This document shows positions 2,013 through 9,960 of a stretch of 34,255 bases of DNA, one piece after another. A program made the position numbers and the translations under genes. Numbering within the stretch: position 1 is the first letter of the stretch; every line of letters begins with the position of its first letter. This DNA comes from Paracoccaceae bacterium (GTDB lineage: Bacteria > Pseudomonadota > Alphaproteobacteria > Rhodobacterales > Rhodobacteraceae), in the NCBI GenBank assembly GCA_027082975.1, contig JALWTH010000411.1, positions 1 through 34,255 on the forward strand, given 5' to 3'. Under the pieces are notes generated by a model that was not told the origin of the DNA, made no database searches, and was given only the letters and a program-made list of their open reading frames with translations.

Positions 2013-3413
2013 TCACCTGGTGACGATCTCCGGCCCCATCAGCGTATTGGGCAGCCAGGTGGAGAGGAACGGGATATAGGTCACCATGACCAGGAACACC
2101 ATCAGCACCGCGAGGAAGGGCAGCGCCGCGCGCACCACCTTCATCATCGGCATGCCCGCAACGCCGGAGGTCACGAACAGGTTGAGCCCCACCGGCGGGG
2201 TGATCATGCCGATCTCCATGTTCACCACCATGATGATGCCCAGGTGGATCGGGTCCACCCCCAGCTCGATGGCGATGGGAAAGACCAGCGGCGCCACGAT
2301 CACGATCAGCCCCGAAGGCTCCATGAACTGCCCGCCGATCAGCAGGATCACGTTGACCACCACGAGGAACATGATCTTGCCGAAACCCGCGCTCAGCATG
2401 GCATTGGCGATGCTCTGGGGGATCTGCTCGTCGGTCAGCACATGCTTGAGGATCAGCGCATTGGCGATGATGAACATCAGCGTCACCGTCAGCCGCCCGG
2501 CCTCGAACAGCGTGTCGCGGGTGTCGCGGTGAAAAAGGGCGGTGACCAGCGCCTGCGGCTTTTGCAGCAGGTTGAGGCGGGCGCCGTCGTTGTTCTTTTC
2601 CGCAAGCGGCCCCATGTCGCGATAGACGAAGGTGGCGACCACAAAGGCATAGATCGCCGCCACCGCCGCCGCTTCGGTCGGGGTGAACAGCGCGCCGATC
2701 CCCAGGGGAGGGATGCCGTAAATGCCGAGCATGATGATGACGATCAGCATCAGCCCCCAGAAGGCATCGGCAAAGCTCTCCCAGACCTCGCGCCAGCCGG
2801 CGAAATCGCCCTTGGGCATGTCCCTGAGCGTGGCGATGACATAGATCGCCACCATCAGCATGAGCCCGGCGAGGATGCCCGGGATCACCCCGGCGAGAAA
2901 CATCCGCCCCACCGAGACCTCGACCGCGCTGGCATAGACCACCATGACGATGGAAGGCGGGATCAGGATGCCGAGCGTGCCGGCATTGCAGATCACGCCT
3001 GCGGCGAAATCCCTGCTGTAGCCCACCTGGCGCATGGCGGCGATGACGATCGAGCCGATCGCCACCACGGTCGCGGGCGAGGAGCCGGAGAGGGCCGCGA
3101 ACATCATGCAGGCAAACACCCCCGAAATCGCCAGCCCGCCGCGAAAATGCCCCACCACGGCGATGGAAAAGCGGATGATCCGCTGCGCCACGCCGCCGGT
3201 GGACATGAAGGTGGAGGCGAGGATGAAGAACGGGATCGCCAGGAGCGTGTAATGCCCGGCCTCGGCCTGGTAGAAGCTCTGCGCCACCGAAGCCAGCGAG
3301 GAATCGGAAAACAGCAGCAGGAAGATGATCGAGCTGAGCCCCAGCGAAATCGCGATCGGCACCCCGATCAGCAGGAAGCCGACCACCATGGCAAAGAGGA
3401 ATACGACGTCCAT
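2013..3413 (-). CDS. dctM: TRAP transporter large permease subunit DctM
   Basis: A polytopic protein of about 466 residues with 12 or more hydrophobic segments. Family blocks visible are MFAALSGSSPATVVAIGSIV, VICNAGTLGILIPPSIVMVVY and the C-terminal MITPPVGLNLFVTSGV. It is the ion-coupled transport subunit of a tripartite TRAP system and moves substrate delivered by the periplasmic DctP. The ORF track extends 33 codons upstream into dctQ; the real start is the ATG at 3413 (MDVVFLFAMVVGFLLIG), one base past the dctQ stop. An extra hydrophilic loop (YRDMGPLAEKNNDGARLN...) mid-protein is compatible with the longer DctM proteins. Substrate is probably C4-dicarboxylates, given dctBD next door, but sequence alone cannot fix it. 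Confidence 0.93.
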   Translation of the reverse strand: MDVVFLFAMVVGFLLIGVPIAISLGLSSIIFLLLFSDSSLASVAQSFYQAEAGHYTLLAIPFFILASTFMSTGGVAQRIIRFSIAVVGHFRGGLAISGVFACMMFAALSGSSPATVVAIGSIVIAAMRQVGYSRDFAAGVICNAGTLGILIPPSIVMVVYASAVEVSVGRMFLAGVIPGILAGLMLMVAIYVIATLRDMPKGDFAGWREVWESFADAFWGLMLIVIIMLGIYGIPPLGIGALFTPTEAAAVAAIYAFVVATFVYRDMGPLAEKNNDGARLNLLQKPQALVTALFHRDTRDTLFEAGRLTVTLMFIIANALILKHVLTDEQIPQSIANAMLSAGFGKIMFLVVVNVILLIGGQFMEPSGLIVIVAPLVFPIAIELGVDPIHLGIIMVVNMEIGMITPPVGLNLFVTSGVAGMPMMKVVRAALPFLAVLMVFLVMVTYIPFLSTWLPNTLMGPEIVTR

Positions 3414-3414
3414 C

Positions 3415-4137
3415 CTACTTCTCCTCCCCGCCCGCAACTCCGCCCGCAACGCCGCCCGCATCGTCGCCGTCAAGGGCGGCATCCACCGTTTCGCCGCTGC
3501 CGATTTCGGCAATGTCGTCCTCGACCTCGTGGCTGACGATCAGGCTGTCGGCGCGCCCGGTCCAGATCGCCCAGGTGGCCTGCAGAAAGCGCCACAGCAA
3601 GAGCGCCATGCCCACGGGCAGGATCACATAGGGCACCACGCGGGGCAGCTTGTCATAGCTTTCGCCGTAATTGATCCAGTCTTCCAGAAAGCGCAGGAAG
3701 CCGGGCATCGGCACCTGATCGGTGATGTAGAAGGAGCGCCCGCGCGCGTGCCAGTCGAAGCCGGTGGGAAACCAGCGCCCGGTGGTCGGCGGCAGCTCCG
3801 CATAGGGCGCCCAGTAATCCCATGCGCCCTTGAGCAGCAAAAAGGCATAAAGGACGCAGAAGAGCGCCGCCAGCAGCGCCACCGCCCGGCGCGCGCGCGG
3901 CGACAGGGTATTGGTGAGCGCATCCACGCCCAGATGCGCCGTCACCTTCACCCCGTAGCTGACCCCGAACAGCACCAGCCAGGCAAACAGGATCAGCACC
4001 ACTTCGAGGCCCCAGACCAGCATCGAGTTGAACACGTAGCGCAGGATCACGTTGACAAAGGTGAGCACGGTCATCAGCCCGAGCAGCAGGGCGATCGCCG
4101 TCTCCTCGAAGCTCGCGCGTTTTCGCGATTGGCGCAT
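3415..4137 (-). CDS. dctQ: TRAP transporter small permease subunit DctQ
   Basis: About 240 residues with four predicted membrane segments. The typical DctQ pattern appears as FVNVILRYVFNSMLVWGLE followed by FAWLVLFGVSYGVKVTAHLG. A long soluble insertion (roughly residues 115-175, including TGRWFPTGFDWHARG) sits between TM3 and TM4, and the C-terminus is acidic and Gly-rich. The small subunit scaffolds the DctM permease. The start at 4137 was chosen over 4182 because GGGAGGGG lies just upstream of this ATG. It is separated from dctP by a 126-bp spacer with a strong hairpin and is followed almost immediately by dctM. Confidence 0.9.
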   Translation of the reverse strand: MRQSRKRASFEETAIALLLGLMTVLTFVNVILRYVFNSMLVWGLEVVLILFAWLVLFGVSYGVKVTAHLGVDALTNTLSPRARRAVALLAALFCVLYAFLLLKGAWDYWAPYAELPPTTGRWFPTGFDWHARGRSFYITDQVPMPGFLRFLEDWINYGESYDKLPRVVPYVILPVGMALLLWRFLQATWAIWTGRADSLIVSHEVEDDIAEIGSGETVDAALDGDDAGGVAGGVAGGEEK

Positions 4138-4182
4138 GGTCCCCTCCCGTATCGCAGCCGGTGTTCCGGTCTGCATCCGCAC

Positions 4183-4263: not shown

Positions 4264-5274
4264 CTAGTGCATGGCGTTGATTTCCTGGGCGGCGGCGATG
4301 TTTTCCTCGCCCACGTCGCCCTTGAACTGCTCCCAGACCGGCTTCATCGCATCGACCCATGCCTGGCGCTGCTCCGGCGTCAGCTGGCGCACCACGCCGC
4401 CGGCGTCGATGATCGACTGCTTGGCCGCCTCGTTCACCGCAAAGGCCTCGGCATTGCGGGTCGCGGTCACCTCGTCGAGGATCTGCTTGAGCTGGCTGCG
4501 CACGTCTTCGGGCAGGCCTTCCCACCAGTCCACATTGGTCACCACCAGGTAGTCGATGATGCCGTGATTGGTCTCGGTCACGCCGTCCTGCACCTCGAAG
4601 AACTTCTTGCCGTAGATGTTGGACCAGGTGTTTTCCTGCCCGTCCACGACCCCGGTCTGCAGCGCGCCATAGACCTCGGAAAAGGCCATCGGCTGGGCGG
4701 TGGCGCCGAGCGCCTCCATCTGCGCGATCAGCACGTCGGAGGGCTGCACGCGGAACTTGAGCCCGGCCGCGTCAGAGGGCAGGATCAGCGGCTTGTTGGC
4801 CGAGAACTGCTTCATGCCGTTATGCCAGAAGGCCAGGCCCAGCAGGCCCCGGCGCACCATGCTTTCCTTCAGCGCCTGGCCGGTCTCGGACTGCTGGAAG
4901 GCATCCACCGCGTCCATGTTCTTGAACATGAACGGCAGGTCGAAGATGCGGAAGCGCTTGGTGAAGGCCTCGAATTTCGACAAGGAAGGCGCCGCCATCT
5001 GCACGTCGCCCTGCAGCATGGCTTCGAGCACCTGGTTGTCGTTGTAGAGCGTGGAGTTCGGATAGACCTCCATGCAGGCCTTGCCGTCCATCTCCTCGTT
5101 CACCCGCTTGGCCAGCAGGGTGGCGGCGATGCCCTTGGGGTGGCGGTCGGTATTGGTGACGTGGCTGAACTTGATGACGATTTCGCCCTCGTCGCAGCCC
5201 GGCGAGGCCAGCGCGGTGCTGGCGCCGAGGCCGAGCGCGACGGTTGCGGCGGCGGCAATGGTCAGGAATTTCAT
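4264..5274 (-). CDS. dctP: TRAP transporter substrate-binding protein DctP
   Basis: About 336 residues. A signal peptide (MKFLTIAAAATVALGLGASTALA) is followed by the DctP fold: IKFSHVTNTDRHPKG near the N-terminus, FRVQPSDVL and YGALQTGVVDGQENTWSN mid-protein. The last contains the conserved region around the arginine and asparagine that bind carboxylate substrates in this family. The start at 5274 is supported by the signal peptide and by GGAGG ten bases upstream; the extra 22 codons in the ORF track are rejected. The stop codon TAG sits in TAGGCTCCCTAGGCC, a CTAG-containing palindromic stretch. First gene of dctPQM. Confidence 0.94.
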   Translation of the reverse strand: MKFLTIAAAATVALGLGASTALASPGCDEGEIVIKFSHVTNTDRHPKGIAATLLAKRVNEEMDGKACMEVYPNSTLYNDNQVLEAMLQGDVQMAAPSLSKFEAFTKRFRIFDLPFMFKNMDAVDAFQQSETGQALKESMVRRGLLGLAFWHNGMKQFSANKPLILPSDAAGLKFRVQPSDVLIAQMEALGATAQPMAFSEVYGALQTGVVDGQENTWSNIYGKKFFEVQDGVTETNHGIIDYLVVTNVDWWEGLPEDVRSQLKQILDEVTATRNAEAFAVNEAAKQSIIDAGGVVRQLTPEQRQAWVDAMKPVWEQFKGDVGEENIAAAQEINAMH

Positions 5275-5385
5275 GGCTCTTGTCCTCCCAGACAGAAACA
5301 GGTTGGGCGCCCGGGCGGGCGCATGGGGCGATTGGGCCATGAAAGGCGGGCTGGCTCAAGCAAAAGTGACGCGCGCGAGGGCGGC

Positions 5386-5404
5386 GATTTTTCTGCGAAA
5401 AATC
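5386..5404. repeat. Palindromic repeat copy 2 (GATTTTT-N5-AAAAATC)
   Basis: GATTTTTCTGCGAAAAATC, a 7-bp stem with loop CTGCG, preceded by GAGGGCGGC exactly as in copy 1 at 1945-1965. It has the same orientation, and the two copies bracket the dctPQM operon. Here it sits between the candidate dctP promoter and the paired palindromes. Confidence 0.75.
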
Positions 5405-5454
5405 AAGGCGGTGGAGCGGGAGGCGCGGATCCCGCCGCGGTGGCGCGGGGGGAT

Positions 5455-5470
5455 GTGCGGATATTCGCAC
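5455..5470. promoter_or_regulatory. Putative DctD operator, site 1
   Basis: GTGCG-GATATT-CGCAC, a perfect 5-bp inverted repeat with a 6-bp centre, about 180-195 bp upstream of the dctP start codon. It matches site 2 in half-sites and centre spacing. Binding by DctD is inferred from position and from the known tandem upstream DctD sites of rhizobial dctA. Confidence 0.55.
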
Positions 5471-5487
5471 GCGCGCAGGCGGCATAT

Positions 5488-5503
5488 GTGTGAAAATCCG
5501 CAC
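5488..5503. promoter_or_regulatory. Putative DctD operator, site 2
   Basis: GTGTG-AAAATC-CGCAC, an inverted repeat with one mismatch, in the wider context TGTGTG-N6-CGCACA. Its centre lies 33 bp from the centre of site 1, close to three helical turns, so two dimers would sit on the same DNA face. Confidence 0.55.
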
Positions 5504-5533
5504 ATTTCGGGCGAATCCCCCCAGCGGCGCCCC

Positions 5534-6763
5534 TCAGCGGCGAAAGTCCTCCGGGCGCAGGCGGTGGCGGGCGAGCTTGTCGTAAAAGGTCTTGCGCGGC
5601 AGTTTCAGGGCCGCCGCGGCGCGGCTGGCATGGCCCTGGTGCTTTTCCAGCGCCTCGATCAGCAGCGAGCGTTCGACCCGGGCGAGGCGCTCGGCGAGGC
5701 CGAGGCTTTCGTCGGGCGCGCGCTCGCTCTCGAGCCCCATGGCAAAGCGCATCGCCGTATTCATCAGCGCGCGGGCATTGCCGGGCCAGTCGCGCGCCAT
5801 CAGGCTGGCGGTATATTCGGGGGTGATCTCGGGCGCTTCCAGCCCGGCCTGTTCGCAGGCCAGCGCGACATAGTGGCGAAACAGCACCGGGATGTCCTCG
5901 GGCCGCTCGCGCAGGGCCGGGATGCGGATGCGCAGGATGTCGAGCCGGTAGAACAGGTCGGCATTGAAGCGCCCGGCCTCGGCCTCCTGTTCGAGCCGGC
6001 GGCAGGTGCCGGCGATCAGGCGGGTGCCGGCGGGGCGGTCGAGATGGTCGAGCAGGGCGAACTGCACCTCCGGGGCGAGGGCCGCCACCTCGTCGAGAAA
6101 CAGCGTGCCGCCGCGCGCCGCCGACAGCCCCTCGGCCAGCCCGGCGCGGTCCAGCCCCGCCGCGGCGAGCTTGACGAAGGGCCGGGTGGCGTCGCCCGAG
6201 AGCTGGTGAATCGCGTCGGCCACCTTGGACGTGCCCGATCCCGGCTCGCCGCAGATCAGCACTTCGGCCTGGCTGCGCGCGGCCAGGCGCACCCGCTGGC
6301 GCAGCTTTTCGGCCAGCGCGGAATTGCCGTGCAGCAGGCGCGCGGCGGCATCCCCGCTCTCGCAGCGGCGCGCCTGGCGGCGGTTTTCCAGCACCACCGC
6401 GCGCTGCTGCAGGGCGCGCTCGAGCACCGCCATCAGATCGCCCGGCTCGCAGGGCTTTTCGAGAAAGGCATAGGCGCCCCCCTTCATCCCGCGCACCGCC
6501 ATGGGTATGTCGCCCTCGCCGGTGAGCAGGATCACCGGCAGGTCCGGGTCCACCTTGCGGGCAAGTTCGAGCAGGGCGAAGCCGTCGCGCCCGGGCATGC
6601 GGATATCGGAGAGCACCACGCCGGGGAAATCGGCGCGGATATGGTCCTTGGCCTCGATATAGGAGGCGGCGGTGACCGGCTCCCGCCCGCCCAGTTCGAT
6701 GGTCTGGGCCAGTGCTTCGCGCACCATGGCGTCGTCATCGACCAGCAGCACCTTGCCCGTCAT
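5534..6763 (-). CDS. dctD: DctD-like response regulator with degenerate AAA+ domain (no GAFTGA)
   Basis: 409 residues. The receiver domain is intact: acidic pocket D9/D10, phospho-acceptor D53 in LSDIRMPG, T81, K103. The central AAA+ domain has Walker B GGTLFLDEV (about 218-226) and the FYRLDILRIRIPALRERPEDI block. Its Walker A is GEPGSGTSK, with T178 where the lysine of GxTGxGKE belongs. The roughly 25-residue segment carrying the sigma-54 contact loop GAFTGA is absent: AEGLSAARGG runs straight into Walker B. A Fis-type HTH (HASRAAAALKLPRKTFYDKL) ends the protein. It is therefore probably not a sigma-54 activator; NtrC of Rhodobacter capsulatus is a known precedent lacking GAFTGA and working with sigma-70. 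The start at 6763 overlaps the dctB stop as ATGA. Likely controls dctPQM downstream. Confidence 0.88.
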   Translation of the reverse strand: MTGKVLLVDDDAMVREALAQTIELGGREPVTAASYIEAKDHIRADFPGVVLSDIRMPGRDGFALLELARKVDPDLPVILLTGEGDIPMAVRGMKGGAYAFLEKPCEPGDLMAVLERALQQRAVVLENRRQARRCESGDAAARLLHGNSALAEKLRQRVRLAARSQAEVLICGEPGSGTSKVADAIHQLSGDATRPFVKLAAAGLDRAGLAEGLSAARGGTLFLDEVAALAPEVQFALLDHLDRPAGTRLIAGTCRRLEQEAEAGRFNADLFYRLDILRIRIPALRERPEDIPVLFRHYVALACEQAGLEAPEITPEYTASLMARDWPGNARALMNTAMRFAMGLESERAPDESLGLAERLARVERSLLIEALEKHQGHASRAAAALKLPRKTFYDKLARHRLRPEDFRR

Positions 6764-8520
6764 GCCGCCGCCTCCCGCTCGTCCCAGGTCTCGAGCTCGA
6801 CGCTGAAGCACGCCCCCTCGCCGGTATTGCGGGCGCGGATATTGCCGCCGAAGCTCTGCACCAGCCCGTAGGAGATCGACAGCCCCAGCCCCATGCCTTC
6901 GCCGCCTTCGCCGCCTTCGCCGCTGCCCACTTCCTTGGTGGTGTAGAAGGGCTCGAACACCTTTTCGGGCTCGGCAATGCCGGGGCCGGTATCGGTGACA
7001 TGCACCGCCAGACGCCCGCCGGCCCGGGCGATGTCGATACGGATGCGCCGCGCGCCCGCCTGCCCGGTCATGGCATCGGCGGAATTGGTGATCAGGTTGA
7101 CGAAAACCTGGGTCAGGCGCACATCGCCCGCGCGCACGAAGAGCGGCGCCGGCGGCGGTGTCCAGTCCAGCGCGACGCCCTCGCGGGCGAGGTGGGATGC
7201 GGTGAGTTCTGCAGCGTTTTCAATGACCTGCACCAGATCGACGCGGCCCACCGGCTCGGCCTCGTTGCGCGCGAAAGCGCGCAGGTTCTGGATGATCCGC
7301 CCCATGCGCCGGGCGAGGTCGGAAATGCGGCCGAGGTTCCGGGCGGCTTTCTCGGGATCGCCGCGCTTCAGGAACTGGGCGGCGTTCTCGGCAAAGGAGC
7401 GGATCGCCATCAGCGGCTGGTTGAGCTCGTGGCTGATCCCGGCGCTCATCTGGCCCAGCGCGCCGAGCTTGCCGGCCTGCACCAGGTCGGCCTGGGCCTG
7501 CTTGAGCGCCGCTTCCGCCTCGCGCCGCTCGCCGATCTCGCGGGTCAGTTCGGCATTGGCCGCGACCAGCGCCGCGGTGCGCTCGGCGACCCTGCCTTCC
7601 AGCTGGGCATTGGCCTCGGCCAGGGTGCGCCGGCGCTCGGCGGCGAGAAACAGAAAGGCGCCGAAGACCAGCACCAGGGCGGCAGCCACCGCGGCCTGCA
7701 GCGCGGCGCCGTGCCGGGCCGGGGCGGTCGCGGCGAGGATCTCGGCGCTGAGGCCGATCACCGGCAGCGACTGGCTGAGATGCAGCGCCTCGGCGGGCAG
7801 GTAGGGGCCGGCATCGAGGCGCCAGATGTCGTGCCCGGCAAGCCGGCGGGGGGCATGGCCGAGAAAGCCCGGGCCGGTGCGGTCGCGCAGGAGCACTTCG
7901 GAGCGGTTCGAGACGATCACCCGCCCGGCCCCGTCGGTGAAGAACACCACCGCCGGGCTGGTCGGCCAGTTCTGCTCGAAGCGCAACACATCCACCTCGG
8001 CGATCACCGCGCCGCGTGCCGGGCCCGGCGCGGCAAAGACCGGCGCGGCAAAGGCAAACAGCCGCCGCGCCTGCCCGTCAGCGCGCCCCTCGATGCGGCT
8101 CGCGGTGCCCAGCGCGCCGTTGAGCGCGCGCAGCAGCGGCTGGCGGCGGCGGTCGAGCGCCTGGCCGACAAGGCCGGGATCGGAGGCGGCGACGATGCGC
8201 CCGGACCTGCCGACCAGCGCCAGCGAGGAAGCGCCGGTCTTGTCGGCCACCTCGCGCAGCAGGGCATTGGCCGCGGCCGCCTCGCCGCGCCCTTCGAGGC
8301 GCGCCACCAGCACCGGGTGTTCGGCCAGCACCACCACCAGGTCGCGGGTGCGAAACAGGTGGCTGGTCAGCCGGTCCGAAGCCAGGTCGAGATCGCTTTG
8401 CGCCTTGGCCGCAAGCTGGGCGAGGGCGCCGCGCCAGGCCAGGTGCCAGACGCCGAGGCTCACCGCCGCCAGCGTGGCGGCAAAGGCAAGGATCCAGAGC
8501 GGGCGGCGGGTGGTGAACAT
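6760..8520 (-). CDS. dctB: C4-dicarboxylate sensor histidine kinase DctB
   Basis: 586 residues. TM1 (about 8-28) and TM2 (about 272-294) flank a periplasmic sensor region of about 240 residues of the DctB double-Cache type. A coiled-coil linker (about 297-350) leads to the kinase: H364 in ISHELNQPLMAI, N box VFVNLITNSADAM (about 472-484), G1 VTDTGPGI (508-515), F box FEPFYTTKE, G2 GMGLGLSIS (542-550). The ATP lid contains GSGEGGEGGEG, encoded by a tandem 9-bp repeat at 6895-6922. It should sense external dicarboxylates and phosphorylate DctD, whose start overlaps this stop. No strong Shine-Dalgarno is visible before the ATG at 8520. The gene lies 70 bp past the SseB-like gene. Confidence 0.92.
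   Translation of the reverse strand: MFTTRRPLWILAFAATLAAVSLGVWHLAWRGALAQLAAKAQSDLDLASDRLTSHLFRTRDLVVVLAEHPVLVARLEGRGEAAAANALLREVADKTGASSLALVGRSGRIVAASDPGLVGQALDRRRQPLLRALNGALGTASRIEGRADGQARRLFAFAAPVFAAPGPARGAVIAEVDVLRFEQNWPTSPAVVFFTDGAGRVIVSNRSEVLLRDRTGPGFLGHAPRRLAGHDIWRLDAGPYLPAEALHLSQSLPVIGLSAEILAATAPARHGAALQAAVAAALVLVFGAFLFLAAERRRTLAEANAQLEGRVAERTAALVAANAELTREIGERREAEAALKQAQADLVQAGKLGALGQMSAGISHELNQPLMAIRSFAENAAQFLKRGDPEKAARNLGRISDLARRMGRIIQNLRAFARNEAEPVGRVDLVQVIENAAELTASHLAREGVALDWTPPPAPLFVRAGDVRLTQVFVNLITNSADAMTGQAGARRIRIDIARAGGRLAVHVTDTGPGIAEPEKVFEPFYTTKEVGSGEGGEGGEGMGLGLSISYGLVQSFGGNIRARNTGEGACFSVELETWDEREAAA
6895..6922. repeat. In-frame 9-bp tandem repeat in the dctB ATP lid
   Basis: Three copies of GCCTTCGCC in a row (plus strand) encode Gly-Glu-Gly units between the F box and G2 box of DctB. 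Slippage here would change the ATP-lid length by three residues without breaking the frame. Confidence 0.7.
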
Positions 8521-8590: not shown

Positions 8591-9382
8591 CTATTTCAGC
8601 CGGGGCGGCTTGTCCGGGTCCGAGCCCGGCGGTGGAGGGGGCGCCGAGATGGTCGGCGCCGGCGGCTCCGGCAGGGGGATTTCCTCGCCCGCCTCCGCCA
8701 GTTCGGCCTCGGCGCGCGAGCCGGGGGCGACGAACAGGGTGGAGAGCGCCAGCGCCGCCCCGGAAAAGGTCAGCGCCTCCTGCGCGGCGCGGGCCAGGCC
8801 CTGCTGGCTTTCTCCGGGCACGCCGGAGAGCCCCAGCACCGCGCCTTCGCCCCCGTCTGCAAAGCGCGCCCTGGCCAGCCATGCCCGCGCCCCGAGCGCG
8901 CCGGCCGAGGCGAGCTTTTCGCGCAGGGCCGGCAGCAGGGCGCGGGTGGCGTCGTCGGGCGGCGACAGGGATTGCAGGCGCTCGCGGCTCTCCTCGGGCG
9001 CTTGTGCAAGCGCCCCCTTGAGCCAGTCCATCGCCTCGGCGGGGATCAGGATCGAGCTCGGCGCGACCCCGAGATTGAGCCCGAGCCCGATCCCCTGCCC
9101 CGCCAGCATTTCGGCAATCGCGCGCCCGGGCAGCGCCGCATAGGGGGCCGGGGCCTCGGCAAACCCGGTCAGCCGCTCCTCGCGGTCGAAGACCAGCGCG
9201 AAGCGCTCGCCCTCGAGGTCGAGGATTTCCGGGCTGATGGCGCCCGGCCCGGCCGGCTCTTCGCTGAGCAGCACGAACAGCTCCGCATCGGCCAGCGCGC
9301 CGTAAAAGGCAAGCCGCGCGGCGTCATCCTCGAGGTCGGCCTGCATGGCGGCATGGGCGGTATCGAGCCGGGTTTCGCTCAT
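8591..9382 (-). CDS. SseB-family protein
   Basis: 263 residues from the ATG at 9382 (MSETRLDTAHAAMQADLEDD). The ORF track start at 9646 is an extension into the upstream gene. The N-terminal half resembles the SseB domain: a region like ARLAFYGALADAELFVLL followed by FALVFDREERLTGFAE and a stretch ending in LGVAPSSILIPAEAMDWLK. The C-terminal half is less conserved and ends in a Pro-rich tail (EPPAPTISAPPPPPG). SseB was named from an enhanced-serine-sensitivity phenotype; its molecular function is not established. The start overlaps the upstream glycosylase gene as ATGA, so it looks co-transcribed with it at the end of the antiporter operon. No signal peptide or membrane segment is visible. 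Confidence 0.75.
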   Translation of the reverse strand: MSETRLDTAHAAMQADLEDDAARLAFYGALADAELFVLLSEEPAGPGAISPEILDLEGERFALVFDREERLTGFAEAPAPYAALPGRAIAEMLAGQGIGLGLNLGVAPSSILIPAEAMDWLKGALAQAPEESRERLQSLSPPDDATRALLPALREKLASAGALGARAWLARARFADGGEGAVLGLSGVPGESQQGLARAAQEALTFSGAALALSTLFVAPGSRAEAELAEAGEEIPLPEPPAPTISAPPPPPGSDPDKPPRLK

Positions 9383-9960
9383 TTCAGCACCTCCTCGATG
9401 CGGGCGCGCAGGGCGGGCAGAAGCTCGGCTGCGAACCACGGATTCTTCTTCAGCCAGGCGGTATTGCGCCAGGAAGGATGCGGCAAGGGGAAAAGCGCGG
9501 GCGCGTGGTCGCGCCAGGCGGCGACGGTCTCGGTGACGCCGGCGCGGGTCTTCAGGTGCCATTTCTGCGCGTGGCCGCCCACCAGCAGGGTGAGCGGCGC
9601 CGCGCCGAGGAATTCGTCCACCCGCGCGCCCCAGGTGCGGGCGCATTGGGGCGGCGGGGGCAGGTCGGCACCGCGCGCGTCATAGCCGGGAAAGCAGAAG
9701 GCCATGGGGGTGATCGCCAGCTTGCGGCGGTCGTAGAAGGCTTCGCGCTCGAGCCCCATCCACTCGCGCAGGCGCTCGCCGGAGGGGTCGTCGAAAGGCC
9801 GCCCCGATTCGTGCACCCGCGCCCCGGGCGCCTGGCCGATCAGCCGGATCGGCGCGCCTTTCTCGAACCACACCACCGGGCGCGGCGCATGGGCGGTGGC
9901 GGTGGCGGCAAAGCGGTCGGCGCACAGGCGGCAGGCGGCGATTTCGGCGCGCGGGTCCAT
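9379..9960 (-). CDS. Uracil-DNA glycosylase superfamily protein, possibly Fe-S type
   Basis: 193 residues. The glycosylase motif near residue 41 reads IGQAPGARVHESGRPFDDPSG (motif 1 plus the Phe that stacks on uracil), and the late motif LPHPSWRN provides the His of the HPS loop. Four cysteines are placed as in [4Fe-4S] UDGs: a CxxC pair near the N-terminus (CRLC) and a later pair spaced C-x16-C. The product should remove uracil or a related damaged base from DNA. Three bases separate it from the third D-type antiporter gene and it overlaps the SseB-like gene, so a DNA-repair enzyme is carried on an ion-transport transcript. Family assignment is firm at superfamily level; substrate is not known. 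Confidence 0.83.
   Translation of the reverse strand: MDPRAEIAACRLCADRFAATATAHAPRPVVWFEKGAPIRLIGQAPGARVHESGRPFDDPSGERLREWMGLEREAFYDRRKLAITPMAFCFPGYDARGADLPPPPQCARTWGARVDEFLGAAPLTLLVGGHAQKWHLKTRAGVTETVAAWRDHAPALFPLPHPSWRNTAWLKKNPWFAAELLPALRARIEEVLK

Follow-up and report, generated by a model that had tools for sequence, protein, structure and literature searches.

The DctD response regulator encoded in the window, by which we mean the whole 34,255-nucleotide stretch of DNA analyzed here, is in all likelihood a phosphorylation-gated, σ54-independent activator that works on a σ70-type promoter, probably without ATP hydrolysis, as judged from its sequence and those of its relatives. The genes of the locus lie on one strand in the order dctB, dctD, and then dctP, dctQ, and dctM of a TRAP transporter (table 1), and the dctD start overlaps the dctB stop by four bases. 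Upstream of dctB and on the same strand, positions 8591–9960 encode SseB-domain and uracil-DNA-glycosylase-family proteins. By its Pfam matches, DctD consists of a receiver, an AAA+ domain of the σ54-activator type, and a Fis HTH, and annotation pipelines name its relatives "sigma-54 dependent transcriptional regulator." Its structure was predicted with confidence (mean pLDDT 89.9), and the AAA+ core of the model resembles the AAA+ domains of PspF and NtrC1 with TM scores of about 0.73–0.75 by target length.

Table 1. Features of the dct locus in window coordinates; residue numbers refer to DctD.
Feature	Position	Strand	Remarks
dctM, TRAP large permease	2013..3413	minus	start inferred
dctQ, TRAP small permease	3415..4140	minus	
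dctP, TRAP solute-binding subunit	4264..5274	minus	
-10-like CCCAAT	5331..5336	minus	17-bp spacer, conserved final T
-35-like TTGAGC	5354..5359	minus	
Two A/T tracts, 11 bp apart	5387..5403	minus	match clade-wide A/T peaks; candidate bend
Proximal operator CGTGCGAATATCCGCACA	5454..5471	minus	centre about -138 from the putative start; 33 bp from distal
Distal operator TGTGCGGATTTTCACACA	5487..5504	minus	centre about -171 from the putative start
dctD	5534..6763	minus	409-aa response regulator with receiver, loop-less AAA+, and Fis-HTH
Fis-type HTH (HTH_8)	5567..5686	minus	residues 360-399, LPRKTFYDKL near-invariant
Arginine-finger region GRFNADLFYRLD	5939..5974	minus	residues 264-275; Asn267 in place of the first finger Arg; second is R273
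Shortened loop L2	6023..6061	minus	residues 235-247, 13 aa vs 25
Walker B TLFLDE	6089..6106	minus	residues 220-225, kept in this protein
Loop L1 (GAFTGA) excision site	6110..6169	minus	residues 199-218, 20 aa vs 39
Degenerate Walker A	6224..6250	minus	residues 172-180 GEPGSGTSK; Thr178 where Lys is canonical; Lys180, two residues past it, is conserved
dctB sensor histidine kinase	6760..8520	minus	weak dCache match, HisKA, HATPase

Losses and Constraints in the AAA+ Domain

The original prediction held that DctD has lost the GAFTGA segment and the Walker A lysine while keeping its receiver, Walker B, arginine-finger region, and HTH, and these residues were counted in 112 unique orthologs and in related sequences (up to 120 for K198). 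In the comparison with rhizobial DctD, the P-loop reads GEPGSGTSK in the window protein versus GETGSGKE in Sinorhizobium meliloti, and the segment from K198 to G219, which lacks GAFTGA, has 20 aa versus 39 aa in canonical DctDs. Both predicted losses proved to extend over the whole clade: a functional Walker A (GxxGxGK) is absent, with lysine in none of the 112 orthologs (Thr in 55, Ile in 36, Asn in 13, Val in 6, and Met and Leu in one each), and the L1 segment is 20 aa in all 112, compared with 39 aa in GAFTGA proteins. Because the lysine is never found and L1 always has the same length in unique orthologs, we judge the loss of GAFTGA and Walker A to be neither chance nor sequencing error; it is a fixed trait of the clade. 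Loop L2 has also been excised, having 13 aa in loop-less DctD versus 25 aa in canonical DctD, and given the shortening of both L1 and L2, the two loops that touch σ54 and promoter DNA (PMC7175178) are gone.

The receiver and HTH are kept as predicted, with D53, T81, and K103 of the former and RKT..Y of the latter each present in 112 of 112 sequences. The prediction for the Walker B and arginine-finger regions stood in part. Walker B is retained by the window protein and by most clade members (Asp in 108 and Glu in 105 of 112), but one subclade of the group to which the window protein belongs (clade A, below) has D-H or D-K and has lost the Glu; the second arginine finger is Arg or Lys, but the first is never Arg and mostly Asn, Ser, or His. 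Beyond what had been noticed originally, loop L2, this first arginine finger, the switch Asn (in all orthologs), and the sensor-I Asn (in 107 of 112, being left in 5) have also been lost. The residue losses make it a well-supported prediction that ATP hydrolysis by DctD is lost or weak, in agreement with the original proposal.

The mean pairwise identity of the AAA+ region is 0.585, below the 0.70 of both the receiver and the HTH, as would be seen if this region were merely drifting in pseudogene-like decay. We consider such decay scarcely credible, for it is contradicted by the fixed loop lengths and by the conservation of the P-loop glycines (112 of 112), of two new lysines, K180 (111 of 112) and K198 (118 of 120, the remaining two being Arg), and of Gly219, which is nearly invariant over 112–120 sequences; the reading frames are open throughout, and operon and operators are conserved. 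Given K180, K198, and its intact Walker B, DctD may still make some use of nucleotide. A σ70-type activator that still needs nucleotide, in which the missing Walker A lysine is made good by Lys180 or Lys198 and assembly is powered by ATP binding or slow hydrolysis, would account for these conserved residues and for the Walker B Glu, and it has a precedent in Rhodobacter capsulatus NtrC, which needs ATP binding, and in Caulobacter NtrC, which needs its Walker A and B residues (PMC10274813). We nonetheless regard it as unlikely, since the switch Asn and first arginine finger are lost in all orthologs and the sensor-I Asn in nearly all, the Walker B Glu is replaced in a subclade, a second clade keeps the Walker A lysine yet has lost Walker B, and Lys180 is placed by the model in the first turn of helix 178–188, two residues past the canonical lysine position.

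Distribution and Descent of the Loop-Less Clade

Of the 80 close relatives recovered by a scan of 84,980 species genomes, almost every one carried the title of Rhodobacteraceae or of one of its member genera, and an ortholog (at least 53% identity) was found in about 104 of 198 sampled genomes of the order, i.e., about half. The loop-less group comprises two clades: clade A, which includes the window DctD, no longer has the Walker A lysine and for the most part retains Walker B, and clade B (L151 and L153–L160) has kept the lysine and has its Walker B destroyed (K-N, K-H, K-R, or R-W). The ATPase lesion of clade B is thus the mirror image of that of clade A, and the clade B gene is divergent from dctPQM.

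Sister to the loop-less clade (100/99) is L152, a canonical DctD bearing GAFTGA, and this placement was obtained in trees built both with and without the trait columns. L152 is encoded in a dctB-dctD-dctPQM locus of an RpoN-positive genome; the locus has tandem operators 32 bp apart and, 96 bp downstream, CTGGCACGCATCTTGAA, which is near the σ54 consensus and differs from it at the -12 C. Because its sister is a canonical GAFTGA DctD in such a locus, the window DctD belongs to the DctD lineage by descent. The simplest order of events would be that loop excision came first, followed by decay of the ATPase in two ways and by repeated loss of rpoN.

Other losses or alterations of GAFTGA were seen outside this clade. 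A DctA-linked DctD on a Paracoccus plasmid (L091:3968-5314) has EPQGRALRA in place of GAFTGA, keeps GPGGSGKE and L2, and has two operator-like palindromes 31 bp apart at its locus, an independent partial loss. The relatives L161–L174, L176, and L180, which are encoded in loci with other dctB-like kinases, mostly read GAFPGA (Thr to Pro), and nearly all are in genomes without detectable RpoN.

Absence of RpoN and the dctP Upstream Region

Neither the DNA-binding domain nor the activator-interacting domain of RpoN was detected in the genome of the window, a MAG of 96% completeness, and four congener genomes agree in that no RpoN DNA-binding domain was detected in them. Among 50 genomes with a clade DctD, RpoN is clear in 20, marginal in 2, and not found in 28, and the DctD lesions are found alike in RpoN-bearing and RpoN-free genomes. 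Cultured species among them include Thioclava marina and Celeribacter ethanolicus, which have RpoN, and Ruegeria intermedia and Aliiroseovarius halocynthiae, which do not. Four NtrC-family AAA+ regulators were recovered from the window's own genome with PF00158 and PF14532, and GAFTGA is also absent from the other three (C256, C139, and C215). The one on contig C139 (L002) is a second DctD-like regulator that has an intact GETGTGKT, a 33-aa L1 that lacks GAFTGA, and LEDIE as Walker B; its relatives are found across Rhodobacterales (L175 and L177–L179).

In the 68 dctP upstream regions searched for σ54 boxes, the mean best score was 3.5 versus 4.2 in shuffles, and 4 of 68 exceeded the 95th percentile; with the same matrix, the S. 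meliloti dctA box scored 17.8 and the L152 box 15.6. Of the features of group I σ54 enhancer-binding proteins, GAFTGA, a functional Walker A, a host σ54, and a -24/-12 target promoter are wanting here, and the architecture of receiver, AAA+, and Fis HTH is kept. What the gap between dctD and dctP does contain are tandem palindromes (TGTGCGGAwwTCCGCACA) 32–33 bp apart, which in sequence and spacing are those of S. meliloti dctA and identify a DctD operator at the target. At least one operator is present in 68 of 71 dctP upstream regions and two in 61, versus 0.5 in shuffles, and in the window's own genome the pattern (at most one mismatch) is confined to the dctP pair apart from one weak match with a single mismatch.

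A conserved TTG(A) is located about 94–100 bp past the proximal operator, or 86–89 bp in some lineages. Of all 77 TTGs between +84 and +103, 58 have a T at +28 after the TTG, against a background of 0.24; the pairing has a p value of 3e-21 in a naive binomial that ignores relatedness and is optimistic because related sequences are not independent, and neighboring intervals are far weaker. This pairing was seen at 15 of 19 rpoN-positive and 20 of 26 rpoN-negative loci. The interval apparently represents the -35/-10 spacing, with a 17-bp spacer, of a σ70-like promoter, whose predicted transcription start would be some 7 bp past the conserved T of the -10. As the -10 element is weak, another σ70-family factor is possible, but we hold recognition by an alternative factor of the heat-shock or ECF type to be decidedly unlikely; although the CCCAAT of the window would suit it, the TTGA, the 17-bp spacer, and the conserved final T fit a housekeeping -35/-10 promoter better. 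Between operators and promoter, A/T peaks occur at +43, +54, and +65 (an 11-bp phase) and IHF-like sites are in excess, part of which may be explained by local A/T richness.

The original proposal that DctD has left σ54 is upheld by the failure to detect RpoN in its own genome, the σ70-like dctP promoter, and the lack of σ54-box enrichment. That it is still a σ54 activator through another contact surface would agree with the presence of RpoN in the 20 genomes mentioned and with the enhancer-like spacing of the operators; we consider this highly improbable, because both contact loops are gone, the σ54 motif is not enriched, the operators and promoter pattern are alike in RpoN-free genomes, and in the window's genome and its congeners the idea is contradicted unless the RpoN gene was missed.

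Proposed Mechanism and Comparison with Known Systems

We propose that the DctB–DctD two-component system turns on the adjacent TRAP C4-dicarboxylate transporter DctPQM. The ancestor of DctD would have been an ordinary σ54 enhancer-binding protein from which L1 with its GAFTGA and L2 were deleted in the ancestor of the clade, ATPase residues being replaced later, and the phosphorylatable receiver, the AAA+ core fold, the HTH, and the tandem operators would have been kept through this change. DctB would phosphorylate Asp53, DctD would assemble on the two operators on about the same helix face, and the phased A/T tracts may bend the DNA, perhaps with IHF, so that DctD could recruit or stabilize housekeeping RNA polymerase at the promoter TTGA-N17-(weak -10), probably without hydrolyzing ATP. 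A more specific version, which we offer tentatively and at somewhat less than even chance, is that of a motor-less distance regulator, in which the dead AAA+ domain is a phosphorylation-gated scaffold that loops DNA to σ70 RNA polymerase, its pocket having been remodeled around K180 and K198 and its loops excised before repeated loss of rpoN.

A positive role for DctB–DctD is backed, by analogy, by a mutant of the sensor gene and not of dctD in Ruegeria pomeroyi. Mutation of SPO2630, annotated as a C4-dicarboxylate transport sensor protein (PMC4809877), reduced growth by 96.9% on fumarate and by 81.8% on succinate, nearly as in dctM and dctP mutants (PMC10130141), although the transposon in SPO2630 could be polar on dctD. 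The R. pomeroyi locus is putatively orthologous by annotation and gene order, by which its dctD would be SPO2629, and other Ruegeria loci fall in clade A. We deem it very unlikely that DctD is instead a repressor or anti-activator of dctPQM: loop-less Caulobacter NtrC does repress as well as activate (PMC10274813), but the operators here are about 86–100 bp upstream of the -35 rather than over the promoter, and the partner-sensor mutant loses growth on fumarate.

DctB–DctD of S. meliloti is similar in domain order, kinase partner, and control of C4-dicarboxylate transport, and its dctA operator TGTGCGGATTTCCGCACA, which has a weaker companion site at a distance of 33 bp, is the same palindrome as that found here. 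The tandem DctD sites at S. meliloti dctA are of unequal affinity. The S. meliloti system differs in that it controls DctA rather than a TRAP transporter, its operator lies between dctA and dctB beside a consensus σ54 promoter, and its DctD has GAFTGA, L2, the Walker A lysine, the switch Asn, and the arginine fingers.

R. capsulatus NtrC, like NtrC of Rhodobacterales, also lacks L1 and GAFTGA, and the account in PMC10274813, citing Bowman and Kranz 1998, reports that it activates σ70 promoters and needs phosphorylation. The likeness to this protein that was originally suggested holds for promoter logic, DctD falling by sequence pattern only in the same σ70 class (no GAFTGA, upstream tandem sites, and a σ70-type promoter), but not for the ATP site, as the Walker A lysine is replaced in the DctD clade; R. 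capsulatus NtrC is also a different paralog that needs ATP binding and serves nitrogen genes. Caulobacter NtrC similarly has no GAFTGA and acts at σ70 promoters, but its deletion is smaller (8 residues) and it cannot function without its Walker A Lys or its Walker B Asp (PMC10274813).

The enterobacterial phosphoglycerate transport regulator PgtA resembles the window DctD in its 20-aa L1 segment, short L2, and missing Walker A lysine, and it differs in having Walker B also destroyed and in its operon. The PgtA model NF047793 is the best NCBIfam match to DctD and is colinear with it, at 283 bits versus a cutoff of 650 bits, below equivalog level. In an E. coli plasmid (L090:4980-6227) and in Klebsiella (L099), PgtA has GAPGTGRM and LSHP, so that the Walker A lysine and the acids of Walker B are missing; GAFTGA and the greater part of L2 are gone as well, and the AAA+ domain is apparently dead. 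A shared origin of the loop loss is rejected by the tree (AU p of 0.0005, with long branches), and the stripped AAA+ domains of PgtA and the DctD clade are therefore probably convergent; no operator match was found in the E. coli pgt locus. GAFTGA has also been lost or altered in the NtrC-family proteins HupR, TyrR, and DhaR, reported to be σ70 dependent (PMC3162934), and in VpsR, all of which differ from DctD in signals and promoters. No papers on the loop-less DctD clade were found in a nonexhaustive search of the open literature.

DctD thus appears to be a rewired dicarboxylate activator that has come off σ54, kept its old operators, and apparently drives an ordinary σ70-type promoter. The annotation "sigma-54 dependent" is carried by relatives in a lineage that, in genomes without σ54, is unable to use it. 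The clade provides a rare stepwise record of an enhancer-dependent circuit changing its sigma factor, with shared operators, a canonical sister that has a σ54-like box, loop-less members in RpoN-bearing as well as RpoN-free genomes, and an ATPase broken in two different ways. The change also has implications for the regulation of carbon uptake in marine bacteria, since fumarate, succinate, and malate are substrates of the R. pomeroyi transporter (PMC10130141).
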